Positions 22,570-43,060 of a stretch of 64,000 nucleotides of DNA are shown here, in pieces (position 1 is the first letter of the stretch; every line of letters starts with the position of its first letter). Source of the DNA: an uncultured Trichococcus sp. (GTDB taxonomy: Bacteria; Bacillota; Bacilli; Lactobacillales; Aerococcaceae); NCBI RefSeq assembly GCF_963667775.1, contig NZ_OY764015.1:564501-628500 (forward strand), given 5' to 3'. A model generated the notes under the pieces. The model was not told where the DNA came from. It made no database searches and worked only from the letters and a program-made list of their open reading frames with translations. The translations under genes were made by a program, and so were the position numbers.

Positions 22570-22575
22570 GAAAAG

Positions 22576-23226: not shown

Positions 23227-23249
23227 TATATATTGTGAAGATAACTTGA

Positions 23250-24654: not shown

Positions 24655-24658
24655 ATAG

Positions 24659-26428: not shown

Positions 26429-26433
26429 AATTA

Positions 26434-28228: not shown

Positions 28229-29624
28229 AAAGATAAATTCGGCAAGAGCAGCGCTTGAGGAGTATTTAAAAGCGGATAACTTCGAAAAACGCAGCACTGA
28301 TCTGGAAACGGCTATCACGGAGGCTGAAACGGATGAAGAAATCGCAGCTGTAGAAGATGAAATCAAACAGTTGGATGAAGAGAAGACGGCTTTCGAAGAA
28401 AAGAAATCTTCCTTGGAGGAGGAAGTTCGAAAATTGGAAGGCGAATTAAAAGAGCTGGACGACAATCAACCGAAACCAGGCGAAGGCACTGAAGGACGTT
28501 CCAAAGAAAATAAAGGCCAAATCAGAGGGGGACAAACAAACATGTTAACAAGATACAAAGCATTCAAAGGTATGCAACGTGCGCAAGTGGAGGAATTGAT
28601 CAAGCGTGATGATGTGCAAGAGTTCTTGACTCGTGCAAGAACGGTCATCTCAGAAAAACGTTCCGTATCAGGCGCAGAATTACTCGTTCCAACAGTTATG
28701 CTGGACATCCTGCGAGACACAATCAACAACTATTCTAAATTGATCTCAAAAGTAAACTTGAAGCCAGTTAAAGGCAAGGCCCGCCAAAACATCACTGGCG
28801 TCGTTCCTGAGGGCGTATGGACGGAAATGGTCGGAACCTTGAACGAATTGAACTTCACGTTCGCGCAAGTCGAAGTCGATGGTTATAAGGTCGGTGGATT
28901 TATTGCGATTCCAAACTCAACCCTGGAAGATTCAGATATCGCTTTAGCAAACGAAATCTTGGACGGCATGGGACAAGGTATCGGGTTGGCAATCGATAAA
29001 GCAATCCTTTACGGTACAGGTACAAAAATGCCAGTCGGTATCGTGAAGCGTTTAGCTGAAGCCGCTAAACCAGCTTACTACGGCAGCACAGAAACGTGGG
29101 CTGACCTAAGAACAACAAACTTGTTAGTAATCACAGCTGTCGGGAAAGATGATCCGACTGTCGGGGATCGCATTTTCTTCCAAGACTTGGTTCGCAAGCT
29201 CGGCGTTGCCAAACACGACAAAGCTTCCGGCTCTAAATTCTGGGCAATGTCAGAAAAAACACTGACAGAACTGAAAGCACGCGGGCTATCATTCAATGCT
29301 GCAGGCACAATCGTTTCCGGGATCGATGCGACCGTCCCTGTTGTTGGTGGAGATGCTGTCGCGCTGAACTTCATTCCGGACAACGTGATCATTGGTGGAT
29401 ACGGAATGATGTACTTGCTTGCCGAACGTGAAGGAACGTCCCTGGCACAATCCGAGCACGTTCAATTCATTCAAGAAAACACTGTCTTCCGCGGAAGCGC
29501 GCGTTACGATGGACGTCCTGTATTCGGTCAAGCATTTGTTGCAATCAATATTTCTCAAGCAGACCTTGCCGCTGCACCGGTAGCCAACGCAGTGACATTC
29601 GTATCAGATACAGCCAACGCTTAA
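28203..29624 (+). CDS. Major capsid protein (HK97 fold) with delta-like coiled-coil domain
   Basis: 473 residues. Residues about 1-105 are a charged coiled-coil (EDEIKQLDEEKTAFEEKKSS), acting as an internal scaffold that the protease removes. Cleavage probably lies near the GQTNMLTRYKAF region. The rest is HK97-gp5-like: ISEKRSVSGAELLVPTVMLDIL, GVVPEGVWTEMV and GGFIAIPNSTLEDSDI. It overlaps the protease gene by 26 bp. The stop codon lies within a palindrome (29614-29631). Confidence 0.94.
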   Translation: MLKQLMLRKKINSARAALEEYLKADNFEKRSTDLETAITEAETDEEIAAVEDEIKQLDEEKTAFEEKKSSLEEEVRKLEGELKELDDNQPKPGEGTEGRSKENKGQIRGGQTNMLTRYKAFKGMQRAQVEELIKRDDVQEFLTRARTVISEKRSVSGAELLVPTVMLDILRDTINNYSKLISKVNLKPVKGKARQNITGVVPEGVWTEMVGTLNELNFTFAQVEVDGYKVGGFIAIPNSTLEDSDIALANEILDGMGQGIGLAIDKAILYGTGTKMPVGIVKRLAEAAKPAYYGSTETWADLRTTNLLVITAVGKDDPTVGDRIFFQDLVRKLGVAKHDKASGSKFWAMSEKTLTELKARGLSFNAAGTIVSGIDATVPVVGGDAVALNFIPDNVIIGGYGMMYLLAEREGTSLAQSEHVQFIQENTVFRGSARYDGRPVFGQAFVAINISQADLAAAPVANAVTFVSDTANA

Positions 29625-29635
29625 GCGTTGGTTTT
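29614..29635 (+). terminator. Palindrome at the capsid gene stop, possible attenuator
   Basis: CCAACGCTTAAGCGTTGG is a perfect 18-bp palindrome containing the TAA stop, followed by TTTTC. It may partially terminate late transcription or stabilise the capsid mRNA. No other terminator lies within the head-gene operon. Confidence 0.55.
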
Positions 29636-29659
29636 CACTAATTGAGAGGTGGGGACAAA

Positions 29660-29908
29660 ATGAAATTTAAAGTAAAAGCCAAAACAATGTTCATCGATGG
29701 GGAAGCTAAAAAGACGCGGGACCGCGAAGAAATATTCGTGACTTCTGCCGAACGCTATGCACTAATGGCCGGAAAACTCGTCGAATTGATCGAAGAAATT
29801 GAAGAACAGGAACCTGCAGAAGAAGAAACCGAAGTGGTGGATGCAGAACCTGCAGTAGAACCCGCAAAGCCTAAGAGGAGCAGAAAAACAACAAAGGATG
29901 ATGCGTAA
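29660..29908 (+). CDS. Hypothetical head-region protein
   Basis: 82 residues with a very acidic middle (EEIEEQEPAEEETEVV) and a basic Lys/Arg tail (KPKRSRKTTKDDA). Position after the capsid gene suggests a small head protein. RBS GAGGTGGGGACAAA before ATG 29660. It overlaps the connector start (TAATG). Confidence 0.7.
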   Translation: MKFKVKAKTMFIDGEAKKTRDREEIFVTSAERYALMAGKLVELIEEIEEQEPAEEETEVVDAEPAVEPAKPKRSRKTTKDDA

Positions 29909-30171
29909 TGTTTGAAGGTGCATTAGATCTGGTTAAGGCCAGGTTAGGGATAACGTCGACGGCTAGGGATGTTTATCTGAAGGCCGTAATCAGTGGCGTT
30001 GTGAGTGAGTTGTCAAGCATTCAAGGGATCGTTCTGAATGAGAATATCCCAGCTCATTTGATGTTCGTCGTTGACTATGCAGAATTTCGTTATTCAAACC
30101 GCGAAAGCCCGGCAATGCCAAGGCACCTTCAATTCCGCATGCATAACCTTATGCTGAGCGGGGGTGAATGA
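29908..30171 (+). CDS. Head-tail connector protein (gp6-like)
   Basis: 87 residues, helical. FEGALDLVKARLGITSTARDVYLKAVISG and FVVDYAEFRYSNRES match the phage_gp6 connector family that extends the portal ring. Position between capsid and closure protein agrees. Confidence 0.85.
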   Translation: MFEGALDLVKARLGITSTARDVYLKAVISGVVSELSSIQGIVLNENIPAHLMFVVDYAEFRYSNRESPAMPRHLQFRMHNLMLSGGE

Positions 30172-30172
30172 C

Positions 30173-30487
30173 ATGTTTAATTACGATATCGACCTAGGTA
30201 AAGTTGCTGAAACGATCGTTAAGAATGAGGTTGCGCGAACGATTAATTGGACGTATAGGCTCGCGAACAAATTGGATGACAACATGTCCGAGTTTTACAA
30301 GGCTGCTGCAGTCGGCTTGAAGCCTGAATTAACCTTCGAGATAAATGATTTCGAATATGGTGACGAAAATTATCTGCGTTATCCTTCTGTATCAGGAACG
30401 GTATACACGATCATTCGCGCTCCGAAACGTGGAGAAATGCGGGAACTCGTATGTGTTACGTTGACAGGGGTTGGTAACGATGGTTAG
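30173..30487 (+). CDS. Putative head closure / head-tail joining protein
   Basis: 104 residues, no strong motif. Its place between the gp6-like connector and the gp10-like protein is that of a head closure protein. ATG 30173 follows GGGGGTGAATGAC; the frame also allows GTG 30164. Confidence 0.6.
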   Translation: MFNYDIDLGKVAETIVKNEVARTINWTYRLANKLDDNMSEFYKAAAVGLKPELTFEINDFEYGDENYLRYPSVSGTVYTIIRAPKRGEMRELVCVTLTGVGNDG

Positions 30488-30836
30488 AAAAGCTTTCACA
30501 ATGGAATCAAACGTTGATAAGATTATCGAAAAAATTCAAGAAAAACCACACATGGTAATGAATCAGATCGGATCGCAGTTAAAACGAGAAATCAAAGCAA
30601 ATACAATGAAGTCCGCCTTCTTCAGGCGTGAGAAAATACTTTCGAGGTCACTTGGGTATTGGGCCAGAAGGCAAGAGAAAGACATTCAGATTGGATTTAA
30701 AATGTCTATCCCTGGCATCGTCGGAAAAATGATAACAGGCGCCGAACCCGATCCGATAAAACCGATAGTGTTGAAAAATGCAGAATTAATAAAACAATTA
30801 ATCGGTAAAGCGCTAGACGAAATAAGAGGTGAGTGA
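30480..30836 (+). CDS. HK97 gp10-like tail-completion/neck protein
   Basis: 118 residues, basic and helical: SQLKREIKANTMKSAFF, LSRSLGYWARRQEKDIQIGFKMSI. HK97-gp10-type neck proteins have this size and position. RBS AGGGGTTGGTAACG before ATG 30480, overlapping the previous gene by 8 bp. Confidence 0.65.
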   Translation: MVRKAFTMESNVDKIIEKIQEKPHMVMNQIGSQLKREIKANTMKSAFFRREKILSRSLGYWARRQEKDIQIGFKMSIPGIVGKMITGAEPDPIKPIVLKNAELIKQLIGKALDEIRGE

Positions 30837-30837
30837 T

Positions 30838-31218
30838 ATGGATGCAAACGCGGTAGCTGATGAGATAGCTATTTACCTGGAAGCGAAACATGAGAGAGTT
30901 TATCGGATCAAAGCTCCGCAATCTCCGGAATTTCCTTACGTCGTTTACAGAATTGATACTATCGCAGACACTTTCCCATCGGATGACGTCGTAATAATAA
31001 TCGATGTTTATGAGGATGCAGCTAAGAGTGTCAGAGGTATCGAAAGTATTGCAGATGCGATTGACGGTGAGCTTAATCATGGAGTTATAGACACACCTGC
31101 AGTTAATATGCATTTTGAGAGAACGATCAGACAATACATTCCGGAAGAAGAACTCATGGGCGTTCACTTGGTCCAAATGCAATACACAACAAGAATTTAC
31201 TTTAAGGGAGAGGTATAA
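30838..31218 (+). CDS. Putative tail completion/terminator protein
   Basis: 126 residues: ADEIAIYLEAKHERVYRIKAPQSPEFPYVVYRI is the opening typical of phage tail terminator proteins (DUF3168-like). It lies just before the tube protein as expected. RBS AGAGGTGAGTGAT before ATG 30838. Confidence 0.7.
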   Translation: MDANAVADEIAIYLEAKHERVYRIKAPQSPEFPYVVYRIDTIADTFPSDDVVIIIDVYEDAAKSVRGIESIADAIDGELNHGVIDTPAVNMHFERTIRQYIPEEELMGVHLVQMQYTTRIYFKGEV

Positions 31219-31220
31219 AC

Positions 31221-31736
31221 ATGGCTACAGCAGAAAAGATTTTGCTAGGGTACGGCATTGTTACGGTCGGCACAACGCCGATCGGATTAACGCGTGGTGG
31301 ATCCGCATTCACTGTCGAACGTGAGTACAGGGAAATTCAAGCTGACGGAGATAGAGGGCCTGTGAAAGGTCGTATCGTCATCGACACCGAGCGTGCGAAA
31401 TTGGTCGTCAATGCATTGGAGTTGTTTAACGCGACGGATATGAATAAATATTATCCAGGTATGAGCGTTGGGCTGGATGTGGAAGAAAGCCCGAAGAAAC
31501 ATACAATGACGTCAACTTTATCTATCGTTTCAGGAGATTACAATGATGTTAAGTGGGTCGGAAAAACGAAAGATGGAAAAGCCGTAACAATCATTGTTAA
31601 AGATGCAATTAATATGGACAACTTAGAATGGAAGCTAGAAGACAAAAATGAAGTCGTTCCTTCTATTGGGTTCACGGCAACTTACGACGAAGCGGCTCGT
31701 GATACTGCTCCATGGAGTGTTGATTACGCAGTTTGA
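31221..31736 (+). CDS. Major tail (tube) protein
   Basis: 171 residues, beta-rich: GYGIVTVGTTPIGLTRGGSAFTVEREYREIQADGDRGPVKGRI, then KLVVNALELFNA, is the typical siphophage tube pattern. RBS GGGAGAGGTATAAAC. Followed by a small terminator-like hairpin and the chaperone gene, the standard order. Confidence 0.88.
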   Translation: MATAEKILLGYGIVTVGTTPIGLTRGGSAFTVEREYREIQADGDRGPVKGRIVIDTERAKLVVNALELFNATDMNKYYPGMSVGLDVEESPKKHTMTSTLSIVSGDYNDVKWVGKTKDGKAVTIIVKDAINMDNLEWKLEDKNEVVPSIGFTATYDEAARDTAPWSVDYAV

Positions 31737-31738
31737 TG

Positions 31739-31766
31739 AGAAGGGGAGTAATCTCCTTCTATTTTT
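31739..31766 (+). terminator. Weak terminator after tail tube gene
   Basis: AGAAGG-GGAG / CTCCTTCT hairpin with a two-base bulge and 4-nt loop, followed by ATTTTTC. Probably a partial terminator that raises tube protein relative to downstream genes. Confidence 0.5.
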
Positions 31767-31789
31767 CGTAGCAAACAGGAGGAATACGG

Positions 31790-32161
31790 ATGATAATTAA
31801 GGATTTTGATCTCGACGACGTGTTTTTGATGTCGGAAATCATAGAAAAAATGGAATTGGAAATGGACACCGACGCCATTATCAAGAAGACTAAAATTGCT
31901 AAAATGACAGGAAAAAAAGATGCTTCCGCTCTTGGGAAAGATGTACTAATGAGTCTTGGAATTGATCTTTCCACAAAGCTCATCAGAAAACTGCATAAAG
32001 CAAAGCGCGAAGTAAAACAACTGATCTCTAATTTAACTGGATTGGAATTGGAAAACGTTGGGAAGATGAGCATGAAAGACATGAAGGGTTTTTTCATGGA
32101 ACTCGTGCAGCGTGAAGGCTTCGAAGATTTTTTATCGCAAGCAGGAGAAGCGACCGAATAA
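31790..32161 (+). CDS. Tail assembly chaperone (gpG-like)
   Basis: 123 residues, helical: IKDFDLDDVFLMSEIIEKMELE and VKQLISNLTGLELENVGKM, as in phage tail assembly chaperones between tube and tape measure. The reading frame passes the heptamer TTTTTTA (32128-32134) shortly before its stop. RBS ACAGGAGGAATACGG. Confidence 0.85.
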   Translation: MIIKDFDLDDVFLMSEIIEKMELEMDTDAIIKKTKIAKMTGKKDASALGKDVLMSLGIDLSTKLIRKLHKAKREVKQLISNLTGLELENVGKMSMKDMKGFFMELVQREGFEDFLSQAGEATE

Positions 32162-32427
32162 ATATAACGGACTTACTCCTGAAAAGGTATGGGAATATAG
32201 AATACGTTTTAAGAATGCCGCTAAAGCAGTCGCTCAAATTGCTTGAAAAAGCGAGTGATGAGGACAAGAGGGAGACGTATTACAAGTGGTGGTTAGTGAG
32301 ATATCCTCAATACACATCAAGTAACTACGAGTCTTTCGACGAGTTCTACGAGAAATTTTTCCCACCAGCAGTAGAATACGACATGCGTTCAAAAGATGAG
32401 TTGATGGCAGAGCTATTACTCTTGTAG
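31790..32427 (+). CDS. Tail assembly chaperone fusion (gpGT-like) by -1 frameshift
   Basis: A -1 shift at TTTTTTA (codons GAT TTT TTA; 32128-32134) joins the first 115 residues of the gpG-like frame to a 97-residue extension ending at TAG 32427, about 212 residues in all. The extension includes KQSLKLLEKASDEDKRETYYKWWLVRYPQY and has no independent RBS of quality; its first in-frame ATG is at 32215, far inside. gpG/gpGT frameshifting is established for lambda and many siphophages. The site here is seen; its use is inferred. The split is encoded in two segments: 31790-32134 and 32134-32427. Confidence 0.75.
32128..32134 (+). other. Programmed -1 ribosomal frameshift heptamer
   Basis: TTTTTTA in the correct register (T TTT TTA relative to the chaperone frame), of the X-XXY-YYZ class. 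CAGGAG (32141-32146) can pair with CTCCTG (32176-32181) just downstream, a possible stimulatory stem. Confidence 0.75.
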
Positions 32428-32443
32428 GAAGGGGGTATGACAT

Positions 32444-34453
32444 ACGGAACTTTTTAGATTATTTGGTTCGATATTAATCGATGACCAAAAAGCGATAGGA
32501 TCATTAAAAAAAGCGGATGAAAAAGCGAGAGAATCGGCAAAAGCTTTAGAAACAGTTCAGGACAAAGCCGGAGCAGCTGCAAAAACGCTAATCGCAGTTG
32601 GGACGACTGCGGTAACGGCGGCTGTCGGAGCTGCTACATTCGCCGTTAATTTCGGAGACGGTCTCCAAAAGGCTCTAAATGGTGTTCAGTCAAGCGCCGG
32701 GCTAACAGATGAACAAATGGGTAGTATGAAGGGTACGATGATTGATATTTATAACAACAATTTCGGAGAAAGTTTCGAGGATATCGGAGTGGCGATGGCC
32801 GAAGTCGCCAAGCAAACCGGATTAGCTGATGAAGAACTCCAATGGGCAACCGAGAGCGCATTACTCATGCGCGATGCATTCGGATTTGAAGTGGCAGATT
32901 CCGTCCGTGCCGCAAGCATGATGATGGATCAGTTTGGCGTGAGTGGAGATACTGCTTATGACCTCATCGCTCAAGGAGCGCAGAAGGGCCTGGATAAGAA
33001 TGGAGATCTATTAGATACAATCAATGAGTATTCCGGGCAATTCTCCGGGATGGGATTCAGCGCGGAAGAGATGTTCAACATGTTATTGAACGGAGCTGAA
33101 TCAGGTACCTTTTCGGTAGATAAACTCGGCGATGCCGTTAAAGAATTCAGCATACGCACGAAGGATGGATCTGACACAAGCAGGGAGGCCTTCGACACTC
33201 TTGGGTTAAACGCCGATGAAATGTTTGCTAATTTTGCGGCAGGTGGAGAAACAGGGAAAGCGGCATTTGAATTAGTCAATGAACGGCTAATGGGCATGAC
33301 GGACCCTCTCGAACAGAACAGGCTTGGTGTAGCCCTATACGGAACGCAGTGGGAAGACCTTGGAGCTACTGGTGTGCAAGCTTTAACAAACGTCGACGGA
33401 TCGATTCAACAAACATCAGAAAACCTATCCCTAATGGACCTGAACGAAACGAAATACAATACTTTCGGAGAAGCGTTGGAAGGCGTCGGCAGGCAGTTGC
33501 AAACCGGCATTTTATTACCGATAAGCGAAAAATTATTACCTAAATTAGCTGAATTGACAGATTCGTTTGCTGAAAAAATGCCACAAATTCAAGGATATGT
33601 CGAAACAGGCATTGCTGTTGCCGTGGATGTTTTTAACGGATTCAAGGATGCACTGCAATGGACGACGGATAATGCGAATATTTTAATACCAGTAATCGCA
33701 GGACTGGCAGCTGGTTATGTCGCTCTGCAAATAATCGGGACCGTCAATACACTAATAGCTGCCGGAAGAGGGCTCATGGCCGCATATACAGCCATTACCG
33801 GAACGTCAACTATTACGATGGCGGGTTTAAATGCAGTCATGGCCGCTAATCCTATGGGAGCACTTGCTTTGGCTATCGGGTTGTTGATTGCTGCTGGTGT
33901 AGCCTTATACATGAACTGGGACACCGTGAAGGAGACGGCAGGTAATTTGTGGTCTACGATTTCAAACGTTTTCGGGAAGATAGGCTCTATAATATCCGAA
34001 AAAATGGATGCTGCAAAAAAAGCTGTCGGCAATGCAATAGACGCAATCAAAGGATTTTTCAGCTTCGATATTTCATGGCCGCATATTCCTGTCCCGAGTT
34101 TCTCTGTCAGCCCGTCTGGGTGGAAAATCGGAGATTTGTTAAAGGGCAGCATTCCTAGTTTGGGGATTTCGTGGAATGCTGACGGTGGTGTTTTCACGCG
34201 ACCAACAATTTTCGACACGGCTAGCGGATTGCAAGGAGTCGGAGAAGCCGGACCGGAGGCGATACTGCCACTTAACGACAAAACATACGAAGGTATGGCC
34301 AGAGGTATTGTAAAAGCCTTGGGTGGCAGAGAAACGATCGATTATGGCATGATGGCTGATGCTATCTTGCAAGCACTGATCAGTTACGGTTTCAAAATCG
34401 AAGTGGATAAACGGCAATTCGGAAGGTTGGTGACGGAAGTTTATGAGGTTTGA
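32444..34453 (+). CDS. Tape measure protein with non-canonical start (ACG)
   Basis: Open frame giving 669 codons from ACG 32444. The tape measure sets tail length and carries transmembrane stretches (IPVIAGLAAGYVALQI, LALAIGLLIAAGVALYM). The standard N-terminus ELFRLFGSILIDDQKAIGS begins at codon 2 from ACG 32444, and a good RBS (GGAAGGGGG, 32427-32435) ends 8 bases before that ACG. Between 32444 and 32717 the frame has no ATG, GTG or TTG. ATG 32437 is out of frame (stops after 6 codons) and too close to the RBS. A start at ATG 32717 would drop 91 conserved-looking residues. So either ACG is used, the start codon was lost by mutation, or there is frameshifting or a sequence error. Confidence 0.82.
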   Translation, partial: TELFRLFGSILIDDQKAIGSLKKADEKARESAKALETVQDKAGAAAKTLIAVGTTAVTAAVGAATFAVNFGDGLQKALNGVQSSAGLTDEQMGSMKGTMIDIYNNNFGESFEDIGVAMAEVAKQTGLADEELQWATESALLMRDAFGFEVADSVRAASMMMDQFGVSGDTAYDLIAQGAQKGLDKNGDLLDTINEYSGQFSGMGFSAEEMFNMLLNGAESGTFSVDKLGDAVKEFSIRTKDGSDTSREAFDTLGLNADEMFANFAAGGETGKAAFELVNERLMGMTDPLEQNRLGVALYGTQWEDLGATGVQALTNVDGSIQQTSENLSLMDLNETKYNTFGEALEGVGRQLQTGILLPISEKLLPKLAELTDSFAEKMPQIQGYVETGIAVAVDVFNGFKDALQWTTDNANILIPVIAGLAAGYVALQIIGTVNTLIAAGRGLMAAYTAITGTSTITMAGLNAVMAANPMGALALAIGLLIAAGVALYMNWDTVKETAGNLWSTISNVFGKIGSIISEKMDAAKKAVGNAIDAIKGFFSFDISWPHIPVPSFSVSPSGWKIGDLLKGSIPSLGISWNADGGVFTRPTIFDTASGLQGVGEAGPEAILPLNDKTYEGMARGIVKALGGRETIDYGMMADAILQALISYGFKIEVDKRQFGRLVTEVYEV

Positions 34454-35270
34454 TGTCAAGTATGTTGGCGCTGGCGGAACTGTCGATATGTCTTCCGCGC
34501 CAATCCTATACCAGGAACATGATTTCATGAAAAGAACCCACGGATATGAAGTCACGCAGCTTCTGAGTGGAATCGGCGGGAGATTGACACGTTTTCAAAA
34601 GGAATCGAGGGAATACAAGATTATCCTATCTGTTTGGCGTGATGACATGTACGACACGCTTAATTGGATGACCGATATTTTTGATCGTGACGTTGCCGAA
34701 AAAGTACCAGGTAAATTATTCGTGAACGACGAATACCTGCAGTGCTACATAGTCGGCAGTGATGTCAAAAATTGGACGTTGCCAGGAAATGGCGTAGCCG
34801 TCGAATTAACCATTTTCGCCGAAAAGCCGATATGGGTGAAAGAGGAATTGCAAACCTTCGACACGTTCGAAGCAAGCTCTACTACCGGATTCAAGCTACC
34901 GACCGCTATTCCGTTCGGCTTCACGTCGAGCGCAGGCTCACGGCAGCTGAATATCGATCATTATACTTCCGTATTCGCTGAAATTTCCTTGTTCGGACCA
35001 GTTACGTCGCCGTCCTTTTCGATCGGGTCGCATATCTATCAGGTATTCGGCACCTTGTCGGCCGGGGAACGGTACGTGATCAACCAAATTAACAAGACGG
35101 TCCACAAAATCACGAACAGTGGCGAAGTGATAAACAGTTTTAATTACAGGAACAAGGAGTATTCCGTTTTTGATCCGATCCCTGCCGGGGAAAGCATCAT
35201 GAATTATTCCGGTGAGTTCCCGATCAGTATTACTCTTTTCTATGAGCGAGGTGAACCAAAGTGGAAATAA
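34443..35270 (+). CDS. Distal tail protein (Dit-like, phage tail family)
   Basis: 275 residues, with an N-terminal Dit-type domain (DFMKRTHGYEVTQLLSGIGGRLTRFQKESREYKIILSV, DDMYDTLNWMTDIFDRDVAEKVPGKL) and a galectin-like C-terminal half. It forms the hub under the tail tube. It overlaps the tape measure gene by 11 bp and the next gene by 10 bp. Confidence 0.88.
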   Translation: MRFDVKYVGAGGTVDMSSAPILYQEHDFMKRTHGYEVTQLLSGIGGRLTRFQKESREYKIILSVWRDDMYDTLNWMTDIFDRDVAEKVPGKLFVNDEYLQCYIVGSDVKNWTLPGNGVAVELTIFAEKPIWVKEELQTFDTFEASSTTGFKLPTAIPFGFTSSAGSRQLNIDHYTSVFAEISLFGPVTSPSFSIGSHIYQVFGTLSAGERYVINQINKTVHKITNSGEVINSFNYRNKEYSVFDPIPAGESIMNYSGEFPISITLFYERGEPKWK

Positions 35271-36241
35271 TTCATGCGGATGAGAACCTGATTGAGCTGC
35301 AGATGCTCACGGAGTTCGAGCAGTACGAAGCCGTCAGTGGGCTTGGGTTTAAGTACGCCGATAATGATTTTGAACTGCAGGTCAAGGAAGCAGCGTGGGA
35401 AAAAATCCCGATGCAAAGCGGCCATTATCTCTATGAAGTCGGAACGGAATGGGGCGGCATGCTGGAAGATGTCAATCATGTCGGAACGACTGTGAAAGTC
35501 GGAGGACCTACCTGGCGCGGCATGTTGGCCAGAAAGATCATTTCTCCTCCTTCCGGACAAGCTTATCGGACAATCACGACGATGGAAGCAAACCAGGCCA
35601 TTGCAGCGCTTGTCGGCTCGTCTCTCGGCTCATTGTTTACCGTGAGCACGGCAAATTCCGGGATTACCGTGAGCGGATCATTCAGATACACAAACCTGTT
35701 GGCCGCTATCCATTCCATGCTGCAGCAATACGGCGCGCGTTTGGAAATTATTTTTGACGGCACACAGGTAGTTTTATCGGTCGTCTCGTCTGTCGATTAC
35801 ACGGAGACAGAGCTGTCTCAGGACTACGACGCGCCGCTGGAATCGTCTGTAGCTCACGGCAAGGCCTATAACCATGTGATTGCGCTCGGCAGAGGCGAGT
35901 TGGTTGACCGCGAAGTGGTGGAGCTGTGGCGGCTTGATGACGGTACAATCACCACAATGCCGCAGCCTGTCGGACCGAAAGACAAACAGTTCGTGCTCGA
36001 TTATCCGAATGCGGAATCGGCGGAAGAGTTGGCCAATAACGCAACTGTCAAGTTGATCGAGAACGCTCCGGAAGAATCGATAGCGATCAATCTGGACGAA
36101 ATCGAAACGGATTTCAAGCTAGGAGACGTCGTCGGCGGAAAGGATAACGTGACCGGGCTCAAAATCAGCAAACCTATCACTCAAAAGATACTCAAAATCG
36201 ACAAAAGCGGAAGAAAAATAAATTACAAAGCGGGTGAATAA
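35261..36241 (+). CDS. Tail protein, ReqiPepy6 gp37-like (Tal N-terminal type)
   Basis: 326 residues. IIHADENLIELQMLTEFEQYEAVSG, GHYLYEVGTEWGGMLEDV and PTWRGMLARKIISPP are the pattern of siphophage gp37-like/baseplate hub proteins. GTG start behind GAGGTGAACCAAA. It lies where a tail-associated lysozyme or hub is expected; I see no catalytic peptidase motif. Confidence 0.8.
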   Translation: MEIIHADENLIELQMLTEFEQYEAVSGLGFKYADNDFELQVKEAAWEKIPMQSGHYLYEVGTEWGGMLEDVNHVGTTVKVGGPTWRGMLARKIISPPSGQAYRTITTMEANQAIAALVGSSLGSLFTVSTANSGITVSGSFRYTNLLAAIHSMLQQYGARLEIIFDGTQVVLSVVSSVDYTETELSQDYDAPLESSVAHGKAYNHVIALGRGELVDREVVELWRLDDGTITTMPQPVGPKDKQFVLDYPNAESAEELANNATVKLIENAPEESIAINLDEIETDFKLGDVVGGKDNVTGLKISKPITQKILKIDKSGRKINYKAGE

Positions 36242-37102
36242 ATGGCACAGAAGGGAATTATCAGAAATTCTACGATAGCTGACGTTTCGGCCGCGAATAT
36301 GGCTGCTGCGTTTCATGCGATGATTGGTTCCTCCGGGATACTGAATCGGTTTAACAACCTGGCATGCACCAAAATAACGGACAATAGCGTCCGGCTAGAT
36401 AGCGGCGTTTACTCATTGCGCGGTTTCTTGCTGCACGTCGAACCAGGAACGACAGTTAACCTGACGATAGACAGCGGGACGGCTGGTCAAAAGCGAAATG
36501 ATCTAATTATGGCGGAACTCGTCAAAAACGGAGGTGGATCCGGCGTTGATACGCTGCAGTTCAAGATATTAAAAGGAACGTCTACAAGCGGAATACCTGT
36601 AGATCCTACGTTAACGCAACAGGACGTTAATGCGGCCGGCGTAACGTGCCAAGAAGCGCTGTATAGAGTTAAATTGGACGGCGTAACGATAACTACGATT
36701 GAGCCGATTGCTAGCCTGATCGGGAATGCGGCTTCGTTGGCGGCGGCATTGGATAATCGCTCGATTGTCGAGAGTGGCGGTAATGATATCGATGGATACT
36801 ACATTAAGTATGGCGACGGTACTATCGTATTCTGGGGAAGGATTGACCTTACTGGTTCATTCGCAACTGGGTCGACCGCTTCTTTCACAAAAAATTTAGG
36901 GGTACCTCTGACAAAGTTACCAATCGTCACGATGGCGGCGTCTATGTATGATGGTTCGGGATCGTTTGACGCGTACGGAGCGTCGCCAAAGCTGAACGGT
37001 ACAAGTTTGAGCGGCTTCTACGGTCACGTGAAGGTAGATTATGCAGCTGTCGCGCAAAACTTTATAGGTGTACACTACGAAGCTCATGCCAAGTGGAAAT
37101 AA
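36242..37102 (+). CDS. Tail fibre/baseplate protein upstream of the diversified adhesin
   Basis: 286 residues. Residues 1-160 are a baseplate-attachment type region (GFLLHVEPGTTVNLTIDSGTAGQKRNDLIMAEL). The C-terminal part (YYIKYGDGTIVFWGRIDLTGSFATGSTASFT) is a beta-rich gp53-like carbohydrate-binding type domain. Probably a receptor-binding or fibre component next to the DGR target. Start after GCGGGTGAATAA. Confidence 0.7.
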   Translation: MAQKGIIRNSTIADVSAANMAAAFHAMIGSSGILNRFNNLACTKITDNSVRLDSGVYSLRGFLLHVEPGTTVNLTIDSGTAGQKRNDLIMAELVKNGGGSGVDTLQFKILKGTSTSGIPVDPTLTQQDVNAAGVTCQEALYRVKLDGVTITTIEPIASLIGNAASLAAALDNRSIVESGGNDIDGYYIKYGDGTIVFWGRIDLTGSFATGSTASFTKNLGVPLTKLPIVTMAASMYDGSGSFDAYGASPKLNGTSLSGFYGHVKVDYAAVAQNFIGVHYEAHAKWK

Positions 37103-37165
37103 CAGTAGTGCGTTGAACGTGATTGGAAAGTGATTCAATAAAAAATGTATGAGGGGTGTTTTTAA

Positions 37166-38584
37166 ATGACGTTTGTACCATCCGATCAACTGAACGAAAT
37201 AATTAACAAAATACCAGGAGATCCAGCTGGTAAACTAGATCGAATTATCAGTAACCTCACTGCCGACCCTACAGATAAACTGGTGATGGGGGTCTACTGG
37301 AACAAAACAAGCAGCCCGACGCTCACGCGCACGGACGACGCAATCGGGAAGGTGGCGGCCGCCGGTGTCGATGGCGCCCTGGTCACGAACGACTTTGACC
37401 GCATGCCGATCTATCGCGAAATGATTGAAGTAACGGATGCTTACGGGAATGTTTTTATCAAAATTCCGAAGTTCTACATCAAAAAGACGGACGGACCCGG
37501 CTTCAAAACAATCAAGATTTCAAAAACACAATATCCGGGCTTTTACCTGCCAGCTGTATTTTGGGATTTTACGAACGGCAAAGAACTGGACTATTATCTG
37601 CATGGTAAATACAAAGCGAACTTGAGCGTGGACAATACGAAACTGGAGAGCAAGCCGGACACGTACCCGCTACAGTCAAAAAACATCGTTGATTTCCGTA
37701 ATTACGCGAAGGCAAACAATAACGTCGGAGCGGCTTTAAAAGGCTATCAGCAGCTGGATATACACGCGCAGGACGTGCTTTATTGCTTATTTACAGTTGA
37801 GTTCGCGACATTGAACTCGCAATCTATTATGCAGGGGTTCTCTACAGGACGATATACCGCGACTGACTTGGTAACGGTAGCTTCAACCGCCGCAAATACA
37901 ATCATCGTAGCTAACGCTACGGCCGACCTTTATAAAGTTGGCCAAACAGTCTCTCTCGGTACGTCACAAGGCGGACACCAAATCTTCTATGGCCGTAAAA
38001 TCGTATCAATCGCCGTTTATGACGGATCAAACAAGGTAATCACTGTTGACGGCGCTGTATTTAATGCGGCTATCGGGAATATGCTGTATAACACCGGCGC
38101 GAAATCCGGATTCAGCGCGGATGTCAACGCGGCAAGCGGAACACCGATCGCAAATGATGGAAAATATCCATGCGTTTACCGTGGGATTGAGTCTCCTTGG
38201 GGCGATATGTGGCAATTTGTGGATGGATTAAATATCACGGATCTGCAGGCGTGGGTCTGCCGGGATGCGGAGCAATACGCTTCAAATGTGTTCGCAGCTC
38301 CTTACGAAAAGGTCGGATATGTCAATGGAAACACAAATGGATATCTGAAATATAAAGGCTTCGATAAGTTGTTCCCGTTCGCTGAATTGCCGAAAGAAGT
38401 CGGTGGGGACTCTGCTACTTATTACGCCGATTATTACTATCAAGCAACCGGACAGTGCATCGCGCTTGTTGGTGGTCTCTGGAGCTCTGGCTCGCTCGGT
38501 GGGCTGTCGTGCTGGAACCTGAACAGTTCTTCGACGTACGCGGGCGCCTACATCGGGGGCCGTCTTCTTAAAAAGGCTCTTTAA
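37166..38584 (+). CDS. DGR target: variable phage adhesin (C-type-lectin-like C-terminus)
   Basis: 472 residues. The N-terminal 90 residues are low-complexity/linker-like, then a beta-rich region; the C-terminal about 150 residues (PCVYRGIESPWGDMWQFVDGLNI, then VGGLWSSGSLGGLSCWNL, ending IGGRLLKKAL) have the CLec/FGE-type pattern of DGR variable proteins such as Mtd, including the terminal GGRL. The last 37 codons or so are the variable repeat (38460-38570). It sits after the fibre gene and immediately before the TR and RT, so it is the phage's probable host-recognition protein. RBS GAGGGGTGTTTTTAA. Confidence 0.92.
   Translation: MTFVPSDQLNEIINKIPGDPAGKLDRIISNLTADPTDKLVMGVYWNKTSSPTLTRTDDAIGKVAAAGVDGALVTNDFDRMPIYREMIEVTDAYGNVFIKIPKFYIKKTDGPGFKTIKISKTQYPGFYLPAVFWDFTNGKELDYYLHGKYKANLSVDNTKLESKPDTYPLQSKNIVDFRNYAKANNNVGAALKGYQQLDIHAQDVLYCLFTVEFATLNSQSIMQGFSTGRYTATDLVTVASTAANTIIVANATADLYKVGQTVSLGTSQGGHQIFYGRKIVSIAVYDGSNKVITVDGAVFNAAIGNMLYNTGAKSGFSADVNAASGTPIANDGKYPCVYRGIESPWGDMWQFVDGLNITDLQAWVCRDAEQYASNVFAAPYEKVGYVNGNTNGYLKYKGFDKLFPFAELPKEVGGDSATYYADYYYQATGQCIALVGGLWSSGSLGGLSCWNLNSSSTYAGAYIGGRLLKKAL
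38460..38570 (+). repeat. DGR variable repeat (VR)
   Basis: 111 bp at the 3' end of the adhesin gene, matching the template repeat 38652-38762 at 95 positions. All 16 differences (at 38466, 38477, 38478, 38484, 38486, 38487, 38495, 38496, 38499, 38511, 38526, 38537, 38543, 38544, 38549, 38566) have A in the template. They change 11 codons: His to Leu, Asp to Gly, Tyr to Cys, and eight Asn to Leu, Ser, Tyr or Gly; one change is silent. The 3' GC-rich part (CATCGGGGGCCGTCT) would act as initiation-of-mutagenic-homology. Confidence 0.97.
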
Positions 38585-38591
38585 GGGGGAC

Positions 38592-38609
38592 CGGGGGATC
38601 TTTCCCCCG
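38592..38609 (+). other. Hairpin downstream of VR (DGR-type stem-loop)
   Basis: CGGGGGA / TCCCCCG, a perfect 7-bp stem with a 4-nt loop, 21 bp after the VR end and 8 bp after the adhesin stop. DGRs such as that of phage BPP-1 need a GC-rich hairpin of this size just downstream of VR for retrohoming. It might also act as a weak terminator (CTTCTTTT follows). Confidence 0.75.
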
Positions 38610-38651
38610 CTTCTTTTAGAGATTGTATCATGAGGGTTTTGAGGTGCGTGC

Positions 38652-38762
38652 TCGCGCATGTTGGTGGTAACTGGAACAATGGCTCGAACGATGGGCTGTC
38701 GTACTGGAACCTGAACAATTCTTCGACGAACGCGAACGCCAACATCGGGGGCCGTCTACTTA
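38652..38762 (+). repeat. DGR template repeat (TR)
   Basis: 111-bp non-coding copy of the VR, 82 bp downstream of it. It has 27 adenines, 16 of which are replaced in VR; none of the 84 non-A positions differ. It is rich in AAC/AAT codon-phase triplets, as DGR templates usually are. It would be transcribed and copied by the RT into A-mutagenised cDNA. Confidence 0.97.
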
Positions 38763-38881
38763 TTAGGGTTTTTATTCATTGCATCTCACTATCCGTGGCG
38801 CTTGCCAAAAATACGCCACAAAGAGCATGGTTTAGTAGGTCTCTCGAAAGACCGTGAGGCTAATAAGAAAGTTGGAATCTC
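38763..38881 (+). ncRNA. DGR RNA 3' spacer with two stem-loops
   Basis: Between TR and RT no ORF is found, but two hairpins can form: GTGGCG (38795-38800) / CGCCAC (38814-38819) and GGTCT (38838-38842) / AGACC (38849-38853). In known DGRs the RNA just 3' of TR is structured and primes cDNA synthesis. The role is inferred from position. Confidence 0.6.
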
Positions 38882-39988
38882 TTGAAACGCTACGGCTATA
38901 TATACGAAAAAGTTTGCGAAATAGAAAATATAAAACATGCTATGCATAAAGCGGCGATCGGAAAACGTGATCAGTTGCGCGTCCGTACAATATTGGAAAA
39001 CAGCGACTGGTACGCCCATCAGATCCGAAAAATGCTGATTAATCAAACATACCGGCCGACGAAGCCGTACATCAAAACGATTCAAGACGGAGTTGTGGGG
39101 AAATCGCGCACGATCCATAAGCCGAATTTCTATCCGGATCAGATTATCCATTGGGCAACCATGCTGCAATTGGAACCGATCTTCATGAAAGGCATGTACC
39201 AGTACAACTGCGGAAGCATTCCTGGGCGCGGCACCTCATACGGACAAAAAACGCTGCGGAAATGGTTAGATAACGATCCTAAGAACACGAAGTACTGCCT
39301 GAAAATGGATGTGAAGAAATTTTATCCATCGATTAAAGCGAAGTATTTGAAAGAGGCTTTCCGGAAGAAGATTAAAGACCAGAAATGCTTGTGGTTGATC
39401 GATAAGATCATCGGAACGGAAGACGGGCAACCAATCGGCTTTTATACGAGTCAATGGTTCGCGAATTTCTTCCTGCAGGACTTGGATCATTTCATAAAAG
39501 AAAAGTTGGGGATCAAGTATTACATCCGCTATGTCGATGATCTCGTATTGCTGGGGCCGAACAAAAAGAAGCTGCACGCCGCACGAAAAGAGGTTCAGAA
39601 ATTCCTGGCCAAGATTGGATTGACCTTGAAAAACACATGGCAAGTCTGGCCAACAAAGAAACGCGACATTGATTTCCTCGGCATTCGCTTTTTCAAAAAT
39701 AAAACGATTCTCCGGAAACGGAACGCACTGCGGATCAAACGCAGGATGGGGAAGATAAGCCGGAAAGGTTATCTGAATGAGCAAGACGCTTCCGCGTTTA
39801 TCTCTTATTGGGGATGGATCAAACGAAGCGACAGTTATCACTTTTATCATAAAAATATGCAGCCATATGCAACGATCGCAATGGCGCGGAAGGTGGTTAG
39901 CACAAATGCAAAAATACGGAAAACTGGTGGACGGGGTTATGCAATGCAGCTCAGTCCAGCTAGACGGTTACAAACCGTTACGGCATGA
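38882..39988 (+). CDS. DGR-type reverse transcriptase
   Basis: 368 residues. RT motifs in order: KMDVKKFYPSI (first catalytic Asp, residue 143), QPIGFYTSQWFANFFLQDLDHF (around 183, the DGR-type IGxxTSQ), YIRYVDDLVLLG (YVDD at 217-220) and WPTKKRDIDFLGIRFF. The thumb region (KISRKGYLNEQDASAFISYWGWIKRSDSYHFY) resembles DGR RTs. Start TTG 38882 has only a weak RBS (AAAGTTGGA). No maturase or endonuclease domain, so not a group II intron RT. Its last 83 bp overlap the next gene; the final 27 residues or so are poorly RT-like. Confidence 0.95.
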   Translation: MKRYGYIYEKVCEIENIKHAMHKAAIGKRDQLRVRTILENSDWYAHQIRKMLINQTYRPTKPYIKTIQDGVVGKSRTIHKPNFYPDQIIHWATMLQLEPIFMKGMYQYNCGSIPGRGTSYGQKTLRKWLDNDPKNTKYCLKMDVKKFYPSIKAKYLKEAFRKKIKDQKCLWLIDKIIGTEDGQPIGFYTSQWFANFFLQDLDHFIKEKLGIKYYIRYVDDLVLLGPNKKKLHAARKEVQKFLAKIGLTLKNTWQVWPTKKRDIDFLGIRFFKNKTILRKRNALRIKRRMGKISRKGYLNEQDASAFISYWGWIKRSDSYHFYHKNMQPYATIAMARKVVSTNAKIRKTGGRGYAMQLSPARRLQTVTA

Positions 39989-40124
39989 TCCGATTCCGGA
40001 AGGTTTCGATCAGCAGACGCAATATGTGTATGAGTTGGATCTGGTAGAAACGGCAGATGAGATTGTGATTGGCGTCGGAATCGGCGTCCTGCAGGTGGAC
40101 GATCCGGAAGAAGGCATGATCTGA
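39906..40124 (+). CDS. Small tail-region protein overlapping the RT 3' end
   Basis: 72 residues, beta-rich (QTQYVYELDLVETADEIVIGVGIGVLQVDDPEEGMI). ATG 39906 follows GGAAGGTGGTTAGCACAA. A longer frame to 39777 exists but lies within the RT. Unknown function; not Avd-like (Avd is larger and helical). Confidence 0.7.
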   Translation: MQKYGKLVDGVMQCSSVQLDGYKPLRHDPIPEGFDQQTQYVYELDLVETADEIVIGVGIGVLQVDDPEEGMI

Positions 40125-40237
40125 TGACGCTAAGCGAACTGTTGGAAATTATCGAAAATCAAAATCGTGAAATCGAAGAACTGCGACGTGAAAATGTTGA
40201 GCAAAAGAACTTTATCGACTCACTACTGGAGGTGTAG
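40124..40237 (+). CDS. Small coiled-coil protein (37 aa)
   Basis: 38 codons from ATG 40124, overlapping the previous TGA. The product is one amphipathic charged helix (LLEIIENQNREIEEL). The stop overlaps a strong RBS for the next gene. XkdX-like size, but no motif. Confidence 0.55.
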   Translation: MTLSELLEIIENQNREIEELRRENVEQKNFIDSLLEV

Positions 40238-40239
40238 TT

Positions 40240-40572
40240 ATGAAAGCACAGAACGATAAAATGCCGATTGCGCCATACGCAGTCGAAAAAGTAGGAACGA
40301 TGGCGGACATCCGTTTTTGTGAAAATGTCATTCAAACAGAAACGGAAGACGGCCCGCGTTATGAATATGATGCCTATTCGTTAGCGATTGAATACACGGA
40401 AGATTTAGGCGCTGATTTAGCCCAAAATACAGCCGTGTGGCTTCAAAAGGCAAAGGACGCAGAAACGCCCATCCCGCTTCCGAAATCGTTAGAGGACCGC
40501 ATGCAAGAGACGGAAAACAAGGTGGTCACGATCGAAGAAACGATCGATGTTCTTTTTGGAGGTGCGAGCTGA
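40240..40572 (+). CDS. Hypothetical tail-region protein
   Basis: 110 residues: PYAVEKVGTMADIRFCENVIQTE, then YEYDAYSLAIEY, and a C-terminal helix ending VVTIEETIDVLFGGAS. Typical small protein after fibre genes in Firmicutes phages; function unknown. RBS GGAGGTGTAGTT. It overlaps the next gene (TGATG). Confidence 0.7.
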   Translation: MKAQNDKMPIAPYAVEKVGTMADIRFCENVIQTETEDGPRYEYDAYSLAIEYTEDLGADLAQNTAVWLQKAKDAETPIPLPKSLEDRMQETENKVVTIEETIDVLFGGAS

Positions 40573-40715
40573 TGAAAAAGGAACGACTAGATGCGATTAA
40601 ATCCGTCAAAGAAGCCAAAAAAGCGGAGCTGAAGGAGAAGTCATTTTCGAAGCTGACGGCCAAAGAAAAGGACGCCTTGCTGGAAACAATGGCAAAAATA
40701 CTGGGGTTAATCTGA
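40572..40715 (+). CDS. Small charged phage protein (47 aa)
   Basis: 48 codons from ATG 40572 with GGAGGTGCGAGCTG. Highly charged helix rich in Lys/Glu (RLDAIKSVKEAKKAELKEK). The frame also runs upstream to 40437 inside the previous gene, which is not credible. No family recognised. Confidence 0.6.
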   Translation: MKKERLDAIKSVKEAKKAELKEKSFSKLTAKEKDALLETMAKILGLI

Positions 40716-40729
40716 GGGGAGCGTGGAAC

Positions 40730-41056
40730 ATGGAGTGGATATCCGCAATCGTAGCGAGTGCAATCACAGGTTTGGTGACGTACTCGGTCGCAAACAAGGA
40801 GACAAGCGGAACGGTAGAACAACAGTACACAGAAAACATCACAAAGCTATTTACTTTTTATAAAGAGCAGGTGGATGCATTAAGCGATGAAGTAAGGCAG
40901 CTGAAATCACAGATCAAAGAAATCGAAAACAAATATGTAAAAGATATCAATGGGTACAAGGTCATCGTCGAGAAGTTGGAAGATGAAATTGAAGTCCTCC
41001 GCGAAGAAAACGAAGGATTGAAGGTCGAAAATGCGCTCTTGAAAGGGGAAAACTAA
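40730..41056 (+). CDS. Membrane-anchored coiled-coil protein before holin
   Basis: 108 residues: one N-terminal hydrophobic segment (WISAIVASAITGLVTYSVA) then about 75 residues of coiled-coil (VDALSDEVRQLKSQIKEIENKY). Size and position suggest a lysis-region accessory (spanin-like roles are not expected in Gram-positives). RBS GGGGAGCGTGGAAC. Confidence 0.7.
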   Translation: MEWISAIVASAITGLVTYSVANKETSGTVEQQYTENITKLFTFYKEQVDALSDEVRQLKSQIKEIENKYVKDINGYKVIVEKLEDEIEVLREENEGLKVENALLKGEN

Positions 41057-41057
41057 T

Positions 41058-41297
41058 ATGGAATTAAATGTTTTTATCGCTCCGATCACAATGATTGCCG
41101 TGGAAATGGCCAAACGCGCCGGCCTGGAAAGCAAGTACCTGGCATTTGTGGCCGTCATCCTAGGAGTGTTATTCGGCGCTCTTTATGGCTTCGTTTATAA
41201 AGGGGATGTATTCGTCAATGCGTTCGAAGGATTGCTGTACGGTGCCGCTTCTTCTGGCGTGTACGATGCAGCGAGCCACACAACAAGGAGTGAGTGA
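41058..41297 (+). CDS. Phage holin
   Basis: 79 residues. Two hydrophobic segments (VFIAPITMIAVEMA and YLAFVAVILGVLFGALYGFVY), then a C-terminal amphipathic part (FEGLLYGAASSGVYDAASH), as in phage holins next to endolysins. It lies directly before the lysin and overlaps it. The holin subtype is unsure. Confidence 0.82.
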   Translation: MELNVFIAPITMIAVEMAKRAGLESKYLAFVAVILGVLFGALYGFVYKGDVFVNAFEGLLYGAASSGVYDAASHTTRSE

Positions 41298-41299
41298 TC

Positions 41300-42814
41300 A
41301 TGGTCACTCTAAACGATATCAAAGCAAAGGTTATCCAGGTATGGCAGGACGATCGTATCATCCTGCCGTCTGTAACTGCAGCTCAATTCATTTTAGAATC
41401 CGCATCCGGAACAAGCACTTTGGCCAAAGCGGCTAATAATTTCTTCGGGATTAAGGCAAGTGTGCCCTGGGCTGGTCCTGTTGAAACGATCACCTCAAAC
41501 GAGGAGGTATACGGCAAACTCGTGCCGCGTGTTTCAAAGTTCCGAAAATACGGATCCTGGCAAGAGTCGGTGCAGGACCATAGTGATTTCTTTGTAAGCA
41601 CCGCTTTCCGGAAGGAACATTATGCAGCTGCAATCGGTGAGACGGACTACAAGAAGGTGTGCACCGCTTTGGCAAAAACATACGCTACCGACTCAAGCTA
41701 CGGCAATAAACTCATTGCGATAATCGAAAATAACGGTCTGGATGCATGGGACGAAGGAGGAACTATCGTGGGGAAGAAGATTTTTATTGATGCTGGACAC
41801 GGCGGGAGCGACAATGGAGCGACTGGAAACGGAATCCTGGAAGACGCGTGGAATTTAGAGGTGTGTGCGCTGATTGAATCAGAATTATTGGCGCTCGGCC
41901 ATCAAATTACGAGTACCAGGAACACGGATGTTTACGTTGGGTTATCCGATCGGGCGATCATGGCCAACAACTGGGGAGCGGATATCTTTATCAGCTGCCA
42001 TGTTAATGCTGGCGGCGGTACCGGCTACGAAGACTTTATCTATGACGGTGTTTTGGCAAGTGACGGAAACACTCCTGGTCTGCAGAGAGCGATCCACGCT
42101 GCCGTCGTAAAAGTAACCGGGGCCTACGGATTAAAAGACCGCGGGATGAAACGCGCCAATTACGCTGTATTGCGGGAAACGTATATGCCGGCAATCTTGT
42201 TGGAAGCTGGATTTTTGGATAACACAAACGATGCAATGCTGCTTAAAAATCCTCAATTCAAAAAAGATTATGCGCACGCGGTCGTTGCTGGCGTCCAAAA
42301 CTATTTCGGGCTGTCAGTCTCTAGTTCTCCGGCACCTTCCGTTTCGCAGGTTGTTAGGACAAGAGTACCTATGACTTATGATGCTAAAGTTACAGTTGGA
42401 GGATATTCGATCGACAGCGCTCCATGGGGCGAACTAGGCTTCACGCAATGGGGCATGACGGATGACATTTTGGGGAATAGCATCTATGTCTACGAGGAGT
42501 CCGAAAGTGGCGAGTATGTCAATGCATATCAAGTAGGTTGGATTGATAAGCGCGCCATCACACGCGAAAAGCAAGTGGTGGCATCGATCGTTCATCTGCC
42601 AAACGGGAAGAACTGGACGATCTATCCAGTGGAAGGTCCGTACACGGCGGGTGATGTGATTTCTCTGGAAGGTGCTAATGGCGAATCAGCGTACACAGTC
42701 CTGGGCGAGCGCAATGGCGGAAAAGTCTTTGTGGTGGAACTGGAAAACTTTGGCCCGGTCGGCCTATACTACGACGAGGACAAAGGCGCTTTTGTTGAAA
42801 AGAAATACGCATAG
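41300..42814 (+). CDS. Endolysin: glucosaminidase (GH73) plus amidase_3
   Basis: 504 residues. N-terminal glucosaminidase-like domain (about 5-150: ILPSVTAAQFILESASGTSTLAKAANNFFGIKAS; catalytic Glu in ILESA). The central N-acetylmuramoyl-L-alanine amidase_3 domain (about 155-340) reads IFIDAGHGGSDNGATGNG, the ISCHVNAGGG zinc site and ILLEAGFLDN. The C-terminal part (about 350-504) is an unassigned wall-binding region. Two catalytic domains that would cut different bonds in peptidoglycan. ATG 41300 with AAGGAGTGAGTGATC; GTG 41294 is an alternative. Confidence 0.9.
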   Translation: MVTLNDIKAKVIQVWQDDRIILPSVTAAQFILESASGTSTLAKAANNFFGIKASVPWAGPVETITSNEEVYGKLVPRVSKFRKYGSWQESVQDHSDFFVSTAFRKEHYAAAIGETDYKKVCTALAKTYATDSSYGNKLIAIIENNGLDAWDEGGTIVGKKIFIDAGHGGSDNGATGNGILEDAWNLEVCALIESELLALGHQITSTRNTDVYVGLSDRAIMANNWGADIFISCHVNAGGGTGYEDFIYDGVLASDGNTPGLQRAIHAAVVKVTGAYGLKDRGMKRANYAVLRETYMPAILLEAGFLDNTNDAMLLKNPQFKKDYAHAVVAGVQNYFGLSVSSSPAPSVSQVVRTRVPMTYDAKVTVGGYSIDSAPWGELGFTQWGMTDDILGNSIYVYEESESGEYVNAYQVGWIDKRAITREKQVVASIVHLPNGKNWTIYPVEGPYTAGDVISLEGANGESAYTVLGERNGGKVFVVELENFGPVGLYYDEDKGAFVEKKYA

Positions 42815-42869
42815 CCTGACGGAGGCTTTATATCCCATCGTTGGTCCCGCATGAGACGTCTTCATGTAT

Positions 42870-42899
42870 ATCCTCACTCTAAGCGGGTGGGGATTTTTT
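42870..42899 (+). terminator. Terminator of the prophage late operon
   Basis: Stem ATCCTCACTC / GGGTGGGGAT (10 bp with G-U pairs), 5-nt loop, then six T. Ends the late transcript after the endolysin. No gene lies between it and attR. Confidence 0.85.
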
Positions 42900-42984
42900 A
42901 ATTTATCCTTGCAATCCAATTAAAGCTCCTATATTATAGAAGAAAGAATATGAATGTATATAAATGAATAAGAAAGAACGAATG

Positions 42985-43004
42985 TTTTTGCACTGATTTT
43001 GCAC
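42985..43004. repeat. Putative integrase arm-binding repeats, right end
   Basis: TTTGCACTGATTTTGCAC contains two TTTGCAC units 11 bp apart, the same spacing and motif (TTTGCAY) as the left-end array at 8830-8847. Lies 43 bp before the attR core. Confidence 0.5.
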
Positions 43005-43046
43005 GAAAATGGCAAAAAGACCGATGTATCAAGGCGATAATAAGTC

Positions 43047-43060
43047 CTCTTGAGACGTAT
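43047..43060. repeat. attR core
   Basis: CTCTTGAGACGTAT, exact copy of the attL core. The sequence right of it is the original downstream flank of the tRNA-Arg gene. The preceding phage bases also repeat AAGGCGATA (43031-43039), seen right of attL (8731-8739). Confidence 0.9.

Follow-up and report, generated by a model that had tools for sequence, protein, structure and literature searches.

An Avd-less, RT-18-type diversity-generating retroelement in a Trichococcus prophage

The 64,000-nt stretch of an uncultured Trichococcus sp. genome analysed here (hereafter the window; assembly GCF_963667775.1, contig NZ_OY764015.1, positions 564,501 to 628,500) contains a prophage-borne diversity-generating retroelement (DGR), in which a target gene, variable repeat (VR), hairpin, template repeat (TR), 75-nt RNA and reverse transcriptase (RT) gene are packed within 2.8 kb (Table 1). 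The locus is a real DGR with an architecture lacking the accessory gene avd, a kind that is already known. The first-pass annotation had proposed a complete-looking DGR in the order target, VR, hairpin, TR and RT, and the repeats, the RT motifs, the relatives and the controls all bear this out. We consider it highly probable that the element is an RT-18-type phage DGR that works without Avd as outlined below, renewing VR while TR stays unchanged.

In the proposed cycle, TR and the spacer that follows it would be transcribed, and the spacer would fold into the RT-18 structure. By analogy with Bordetella phage BPP-1, this RNA would bind the RT, hold it and let cDNA synthesis begin at the 3' end of TR. 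Miscopying of template adenines by the RT would give a mutated cDNA that replaces VR, guided by a shared 3' segment for the initiation of mutagenic homing (IMH) and by the hairpin after VR. The C-type-lectin tip of a tail protein would thereby be sampled anew at about 11 residues while TR remained unchanged, and the resampled codons would mostly be AAY, which cannot turn into stops.

Table 1 Features of the DGR and its prophage, with positions counted from the first letter of the window.
Feature	Position	Strand	Basis
Prophage, about 34 kb	8706..43060		14-nt direct repeat at 8706-8719 and 43047-43060; probable boundary, placed by the repeat
Integrase	8861..10027	-	phrog_1, 248 bits
Tail gene before the target	36242..37102	+	Also present in both further DGR prophages of the genome
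DGR target, tail protein, 472 aa, predicted C-type-lectin-like C-terminus	37166..38584	+	phrog_5302, E 3.3e-46; profile against 5vf4
VR	38460..38570	+	3' end from about 38556 is an IMH-like segment
Hairpin CGGGGGA-TCTT-TCCCCCG after VR	38592..38609	+	7-bp stem, 4-nt loop
TR	38652..38762	+	3' end is an IMH*-like segment
Structured RNA between TR and RT, Rfam RT-18 (RF03021)	38796..38870	+	68.4 bits, cut-off 41.3; covariation
DGR RT, 368 aa, TTG start	38882..39988	+	RVT_1, phrog_1423, TSQ and YVDD, tree

Adenine-specific repeats and their variation in relatives

TR and VR, each 111 nt long, offset by 192 nt and separated by 81 nt, differ in direct comparison at 16 positions. All 16 are adenines in TR, which has 27 of them, and none of the 84 non-adenine positions is changed; all 16 would fall on adenines with a probability of 1.6e-12 if the mismatches were scattered randomly over the 111 positions. 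The first-pass annotation had given the coordinates and length of the repeats, the 16 adenine mismatches and the 84 unchanged positions, all of which proved exact on recount. Its statement that the changes touch 11 codons, mostly AAY, needs amending in the first part: 12 codons are affected, 11 with an altered amino acid and one synonymously (CTA to CTT, 38564), and eight of the 12 affected TR codons are AAY. Because the 16th mismatch (A38758 in TR) is silent and lies inside the 3' IMH segment, we count about 15 mutagenic changes. A scan of both strands of the whole window returned this single TR/VR pair, and a pattern made from the first 56 nt of TR matched only the element's own TR and VR genome-wide. 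The same scan yielded a pair in none of 120 shuffled loci and recovered the BPP-1 pair, with 17/17 mismatches at adenines.

The relatives compared comprise 66 viral loci and 16 genome loci, designated by L numbers. Summed over 25 of the 27 loci examined (L009 and L011 were left out, and the near copies L015, L022, L039, L072, L074 and L082 were not counted), and setting aside the last 15 nt of TR, VR differs at 340 of 586 adenines versus 11 of 1787 other bases. The adenine-specific pattern thus recurs beyond the window, and these figures offer no refutation of the kind that the first-pass annotation had expected from non-adenine differences in related prophages. In the IMH segment, which those 15 nt represent, 33 adenines and 14 other positions differ. 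These 3' differences fall in one segment, in which the TRs end like CTTATTAG and the VRs like CTTAAAAAG, so the ends shared by the two repeats in the window are plausible counterparts of IMH* and IMH; in BPP-1 the two are said to differ likewise at their 3' ends (PMC12875486).

Natural variation was compared in 13 pairs of near-identical loci. Specifically, the three phages L037, L039 and L082, which all carry RT-18, differ pairwise at 14, 10 and 10 positions of VR, all of them TR adenines, with TR unchanged and 0-3 changes across the remaining 2.9-3.7 kb. The restriction of these differences to TR adenines indicates that the lineage has been active in nature, and the window copy itself is presumably active as well. 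In the viral contig L013 (7492 nt), all eight undetermined bases lie in VR (3436-3470), at TR-adenine positions; this is what a mixed, hypervarying population would give, and the ambiguity may also have another cause. As a separate observation, several relatives appear to hold more than one VR: TR 1308-1422 of L093 (within 888-1422) matches two upstream sites with 15/15 and 17/20 mismatches at adenines, perhaps including a second VR, and one TR matches two or three upstream VRs in L040, L044-L048, L050, L051, L069 and L071.

Reverse transcriptase, target and spacer RNA

The RT matches RVT_1 and phrog_1423 (354 bits), and its best solved chain is 8ub7, which we take to be the BPP-1 RT. As the first-pass annotation had recorded, an RT with YVDD and DGR-type motifs follows TR: the motifs are TSQW, with SQ in region 4, and YVDD, a form of YxDD, whereas the group II intron RTs of the same genome have SP. 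The SQ motif is a mark of DGR RTs (PMC3521204). In an unrooted tree of 39 rows (L087, an incomplete sequence, was left out), the window RT falls in a 22-row group with support 100/100. All 19 rows labelled RT-18 lie inside this group, which also includes the RT of the genome's third DGR, L052 and L061; RT-18 carriers thus cluster, in a group wider than the RT-18 rows, so that no single clade is established. A grouping with introns or retrons, the other outcome held in advance to speak against a DGR, did not appear, as the window RT groups with the RTs of TR/VR-bearing loci and the two RTs of group II introns in the genome make up a separate branch (100/100).

The C-terminus of the target, which holds VR, probably adopts a C-type-lectin fold, judging by sequence profiles. 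A target profile (A1, 26 sequences including that of the window) matches PDB 5vf4 with E 2.1e-11 in three colinear stretches, of which the last falls on VR at the C-terminus; individually, each stretch scores weakly (i-Evalues 0.0014, 11 and 0.12). This structure is that of TaqVP, a C-type-lectin protein from the DGR of a Thermus aquaticus prophage; that DGR, unlike the one of the window, has avd (PMC6328139), and the window target further differs in an insertion and in its N-terminus. Searched on its own, the target sequence gave PDB matches (best E 0.025) that we put down to chance. From its tail context and by analogy with BPP-1, the target would be a receptor-binding protein.

The spacer between TR and RT matches RF03021, which Rfam describes merely as 'RT-18 RNA', with no role listed. 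In the two model helices counted, 94.7% of cells are paired. Across 31 distinct sequences picked by their RT-18 match (two model helices, 11 pairs), the covariation score is 0.715, compared with 0.060-0.123 for slid controls and an average of 0.248 after shuffling (0/500 shuffles as high); nine pairs have changed on both sides, a number that 122/500 shuffles also reach. Searches for RT-18 and for bAvd covered 45 of the 66 viral records. RT-18 exceeds its cut-off in 25 of these 45 and in 10 of 15 loci of a second set (L083 left out), and a TR/VR pair is present in 23 of the 25 (L011 and L023 are without) and in nine of the 10 (L086 is without, and L094 has 10/13 mismatches at adenines). Over 29 loci, one of which (L036) has a truncated TR match, the median distance is 38 nt from the end of TR to the start of RT-18 and 11 nt from the end of RT-18 to the RT match. 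The family is rare in genomes, with matches in 4/398 of the phylum, 1/395 of the order and 0/14 controls; besides the source genome, the three phylum genomes with a match (below cut-off in one of them) also show an SQ-type RT together with a TR/VR pair at the site. Among named relatives, Lactobacillus phage LBR48 and Levilactobacillus prophages (L023, L074-L076) share with the window element RTs that are 55-57% identical, RT-18 over cut-off and a related target; LBR48 differs in that no TR/VR pair was found in its record, the start of which the target spans.

Other DGRs carry other RNAs in the same place. Between TR and RT, the BPP-1 spacer matches Rfam Phage_DGR, that of the source genome's second DGR RT-9, that of some relatives RT-17 and that of Faecalibacterium phage FP_Epona RT-4; matches so placed lie at L091:2750-2882 (Phage_DGR), L002:1369-1461 (RT-9), L028:2328-2411 (RT-17) and L105:2858-2974 (RT-4). 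RT-17 exceeds its cut-off in 19 of the 41 viral records given and lies between TR and the RT match in 16 of these 19; no TR was found for the RT-17-positive L031, L041 and L068. RT-4 was matched once among 398 genomes, just behind a TR/VR pair that has 16/17 mismatches at adenines, and RT-9 occurs in 1/199 phylum genomes, namely the source genome itself. RT-4, RT-9, RT-17 and RT-18 are thus probably template-RNA spacers of DGRs, which would give a likely function to families listed only as RT-n small RNAs and offer a new handle for finding DGRs. These families reportedly come from a 2017 paper; among the matches listed from the open-access literature we found no paper tying RT-n RNAs to DGRs, nor one giving their accession numbers, and that original description may draw the connection. 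PMC8143477 cites the same 2017 paper for DUF2800/DUF2815.

Diversification without Avd and the rival explanations

The window element and BPP-1 have in common adenine-specific repeats, an RT with SQ and YxDD, a spacer RNA between TR and RT, a hairpin after VR and a target of the C-type-lectin class. They differ in the avd gene that BPP-1 carries between VR and TR, in the GAAA loop of its hairpin, and in its Phage_DGR spacer where the window has RT-18. About a quarter of DGRs lack an accessory-gene homologue, and those of lineage 3, devoid of avd, are arranged target-VR-TR-RT (PMC7290462). In gene order and lack of avd, the window element has this lineage 3 architecture. The lineage scheme is said to be that of Wu et al. 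2018. The DGR of crAssphage LMMB, assigned to lineage 3 (PMC7290462), resembles the window element in gene order, lack of avd and a tail-protein target, and 21 of its 22 TR/VR mismatches, found in this analysis, fall on adenines. By contrast, its RT, which is not among the 39 rows of the RT tree, is 34.9% identical to that of the window, and the stretch examined has no Rfam match at E 0.05, as is also the case for L106 and L107.

A number of observations weigh against a working, Avd-less element and are given here beside the rival explanations. L009 (18 adenine and 19 other differences, with an indel) and L011 (seven and nine) fit an adenine-only pattern badly. The three pairs among L028-L030 combine 15-16 adenine changes with 4-5 at other bases, and L050/L051 and L051/L054 combine 10 with one. 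The single-sequence folds of the window are no better than those of shuffled sequences, for RT-18 (z -0.65) as for the hairpin region (z -1.02). In the tree, long branches place the RTs of BPP-1 and of the second DGR of the genome with the introns, on their side, and the tree alone therefore does not tie the window RT to that of BPP-1.

A further point is the missing Avd. In the reconstituted BPP-1 DGR, inactivation of Avd, RT or TR drops repair to about 1e-9 (PMC12875486), so BPP-1 requires Avd, and none is seen at the window locus. This dependence, together with the single bAvd gene that the source genome encodes elsewhere, at its second DGR, would fit an Avd-like helper that escaped our searches, whether a remote phage protein or a host protein, possibly the second DGR's Avd itself. 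We regard such a helper as rather unlikely: bAvd (PF22296) was found in 0/45 of the related viral records, many of them fragments, with the BPP-1 control at 123 bits, and no open reading frame downstream of RT is common to all 21 neighbourhoods compared. One candidate, a 72-aa frame (window 39906-40124) that overlaps the 3' end of RT and matches no PHROG or other family, was rejected as a substitute accessory gene; kept in just 10 of the 21 loci and missing from the remaining 11, it is no general partner.

The hairpin after VR, which the first-pass annotation had pointed out and which is indeed present, starts 7 nt past the target's stop codon. Published phage DGR hairpins have a GC-rich stem of 7-10 bp and a 4-nt GRNA loop at a distance of 4-34 bp (PMC3240598). 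The window hairpin fits in stem length, loop size and distance; its loop is TCTT, not GRNA, and 0/15 of the relatives' loops are GRNA. In BPP-1, changing the loop from GAAA to CTTT cuts homing to near background (PMC3240598), a further point against a homing role for the window hairpin. It could instead be the transcription terminator of the target gene, an explanation that the loop would suit, as would a GC-rich stem so close to the stop codon and followed by CTTCTTTT. Nevertheless, the stems of the relatives inspected mostly have no immediate T-run. Perfect stems of at least 7 bp follow VR in 15/26 loci, and GGGGGA...TCCCCC with a loop of 3-6 nt recurs in 15/26 at the same place after VR, the published site of homing hairpins (PMC3240598), which makes a mere terminator unlikely. 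Among the relatives the stem sequence is kept and the loop varies, the reverse of the BPP-1 rule, which fixes the loop and leaves the stem free to change. This is only a lead, because shared ancestry alone could conserve the stem.

A formerly active element is the next alternative: the prophage or its RT would no longer diversify, and VR would be a frozen product of the past. No related strain with a different VR was found, as the family's 75 other genomes hold no close relative of the target and no second copy of the prophage was found. VR is also invariant in some near-identical relatives, namely L015/L016, L020/L022 (RT-18), L050/L054, L053/L054 and L062/L063, with 9, 0, 0, 0 and 84 changes elsewhere, respectively. 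Against this stand the intact target, RT and RNA, the retained RT motifs and the complete lack of non-adenine differences gathered between TR and VR, and we consider silence improbable. The last alternative, a non-DGR RT (from a group II intron, a retron or a defence system) next to a chance repeat, can be practically dismissed, since the RT scores with all three kinds of model only far under the curated NCBIfam cut-offs (89 bits against 300 for the intron model TIGR04416) and has SQ instead of SP, the adenine-only pattern defies chance and the same cassette recurs in many relatives.

A broader proposal can be put forward tentatively, with less than even confidence: RT-18-type phage DGRs may form a mechanistically distinct sublineage that diversifies without Avd. 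RT-18 RNA alone would do the holding and priming that BPP-1 splits between RNA and Avd, the hairpin would be read via its GGGGGA/TCCCCC stem and not its loop, and RT-4, RT-9, RT-17 and RT-18, as template-RNA spacers of different DGR lineages, would be markers for detecting and typing DGRs. In the papers cited, much of DGR biochemistry rests on BPP-1, an Avd-dependent system, and a compact Avd-less element whose lineage shows signs of activity in nature opens the job of Avd to comparison.

The prophage and the genome's other DGRs

The host genome is a single contig of 3.3 Mb. That the DGR is prophage-encoded, as first annotated, agrees with the genes around it, which include those for integrase, terminase, portal, head, tape measure, tail and lysis proteins, and with the flanking att-like repeat, the left copy of which falls at the 3' end of a tRNA-Arg gene. 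The DGR sits between the tail genes and the genes for holin and endolysin.

Two further DGRs of the same genome are likewise prophage-borne and placed between tail and lysis genes, with RTs of other lineages. The second (L002/L088, host contig near 211456-213032) has 12/12 mismatches at adenines, avd and RT-9; the third (L003/L089, host contig 811166-812002) has 17/18 mismatches at adenines and, in L003, no Rfam match. The gene before the target is shared with both prophages (65.5% and 45.8% identity), as is the C-terminal part of the endolysin, and one open reading frame after RT is 88.8% identical with its counterpart in L089. By sharp contrast, the RTs of these DGRs are only 28-29% identical to that of the window. 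Shared flanking genes around such divergent RTs point to one slot holding three cassettes, and the occupation of that slot by three DGRs in three prophages of one genome suggests that related phages exchange cassettes.

Two identical tRNA-Arg(tct) genes (8300-8376 and 8642-8717) stand in tandem before the integrase gene. The att-like repeat lies at the end of the second one, which would fit duplication of the tRNA by an earlier integration event.

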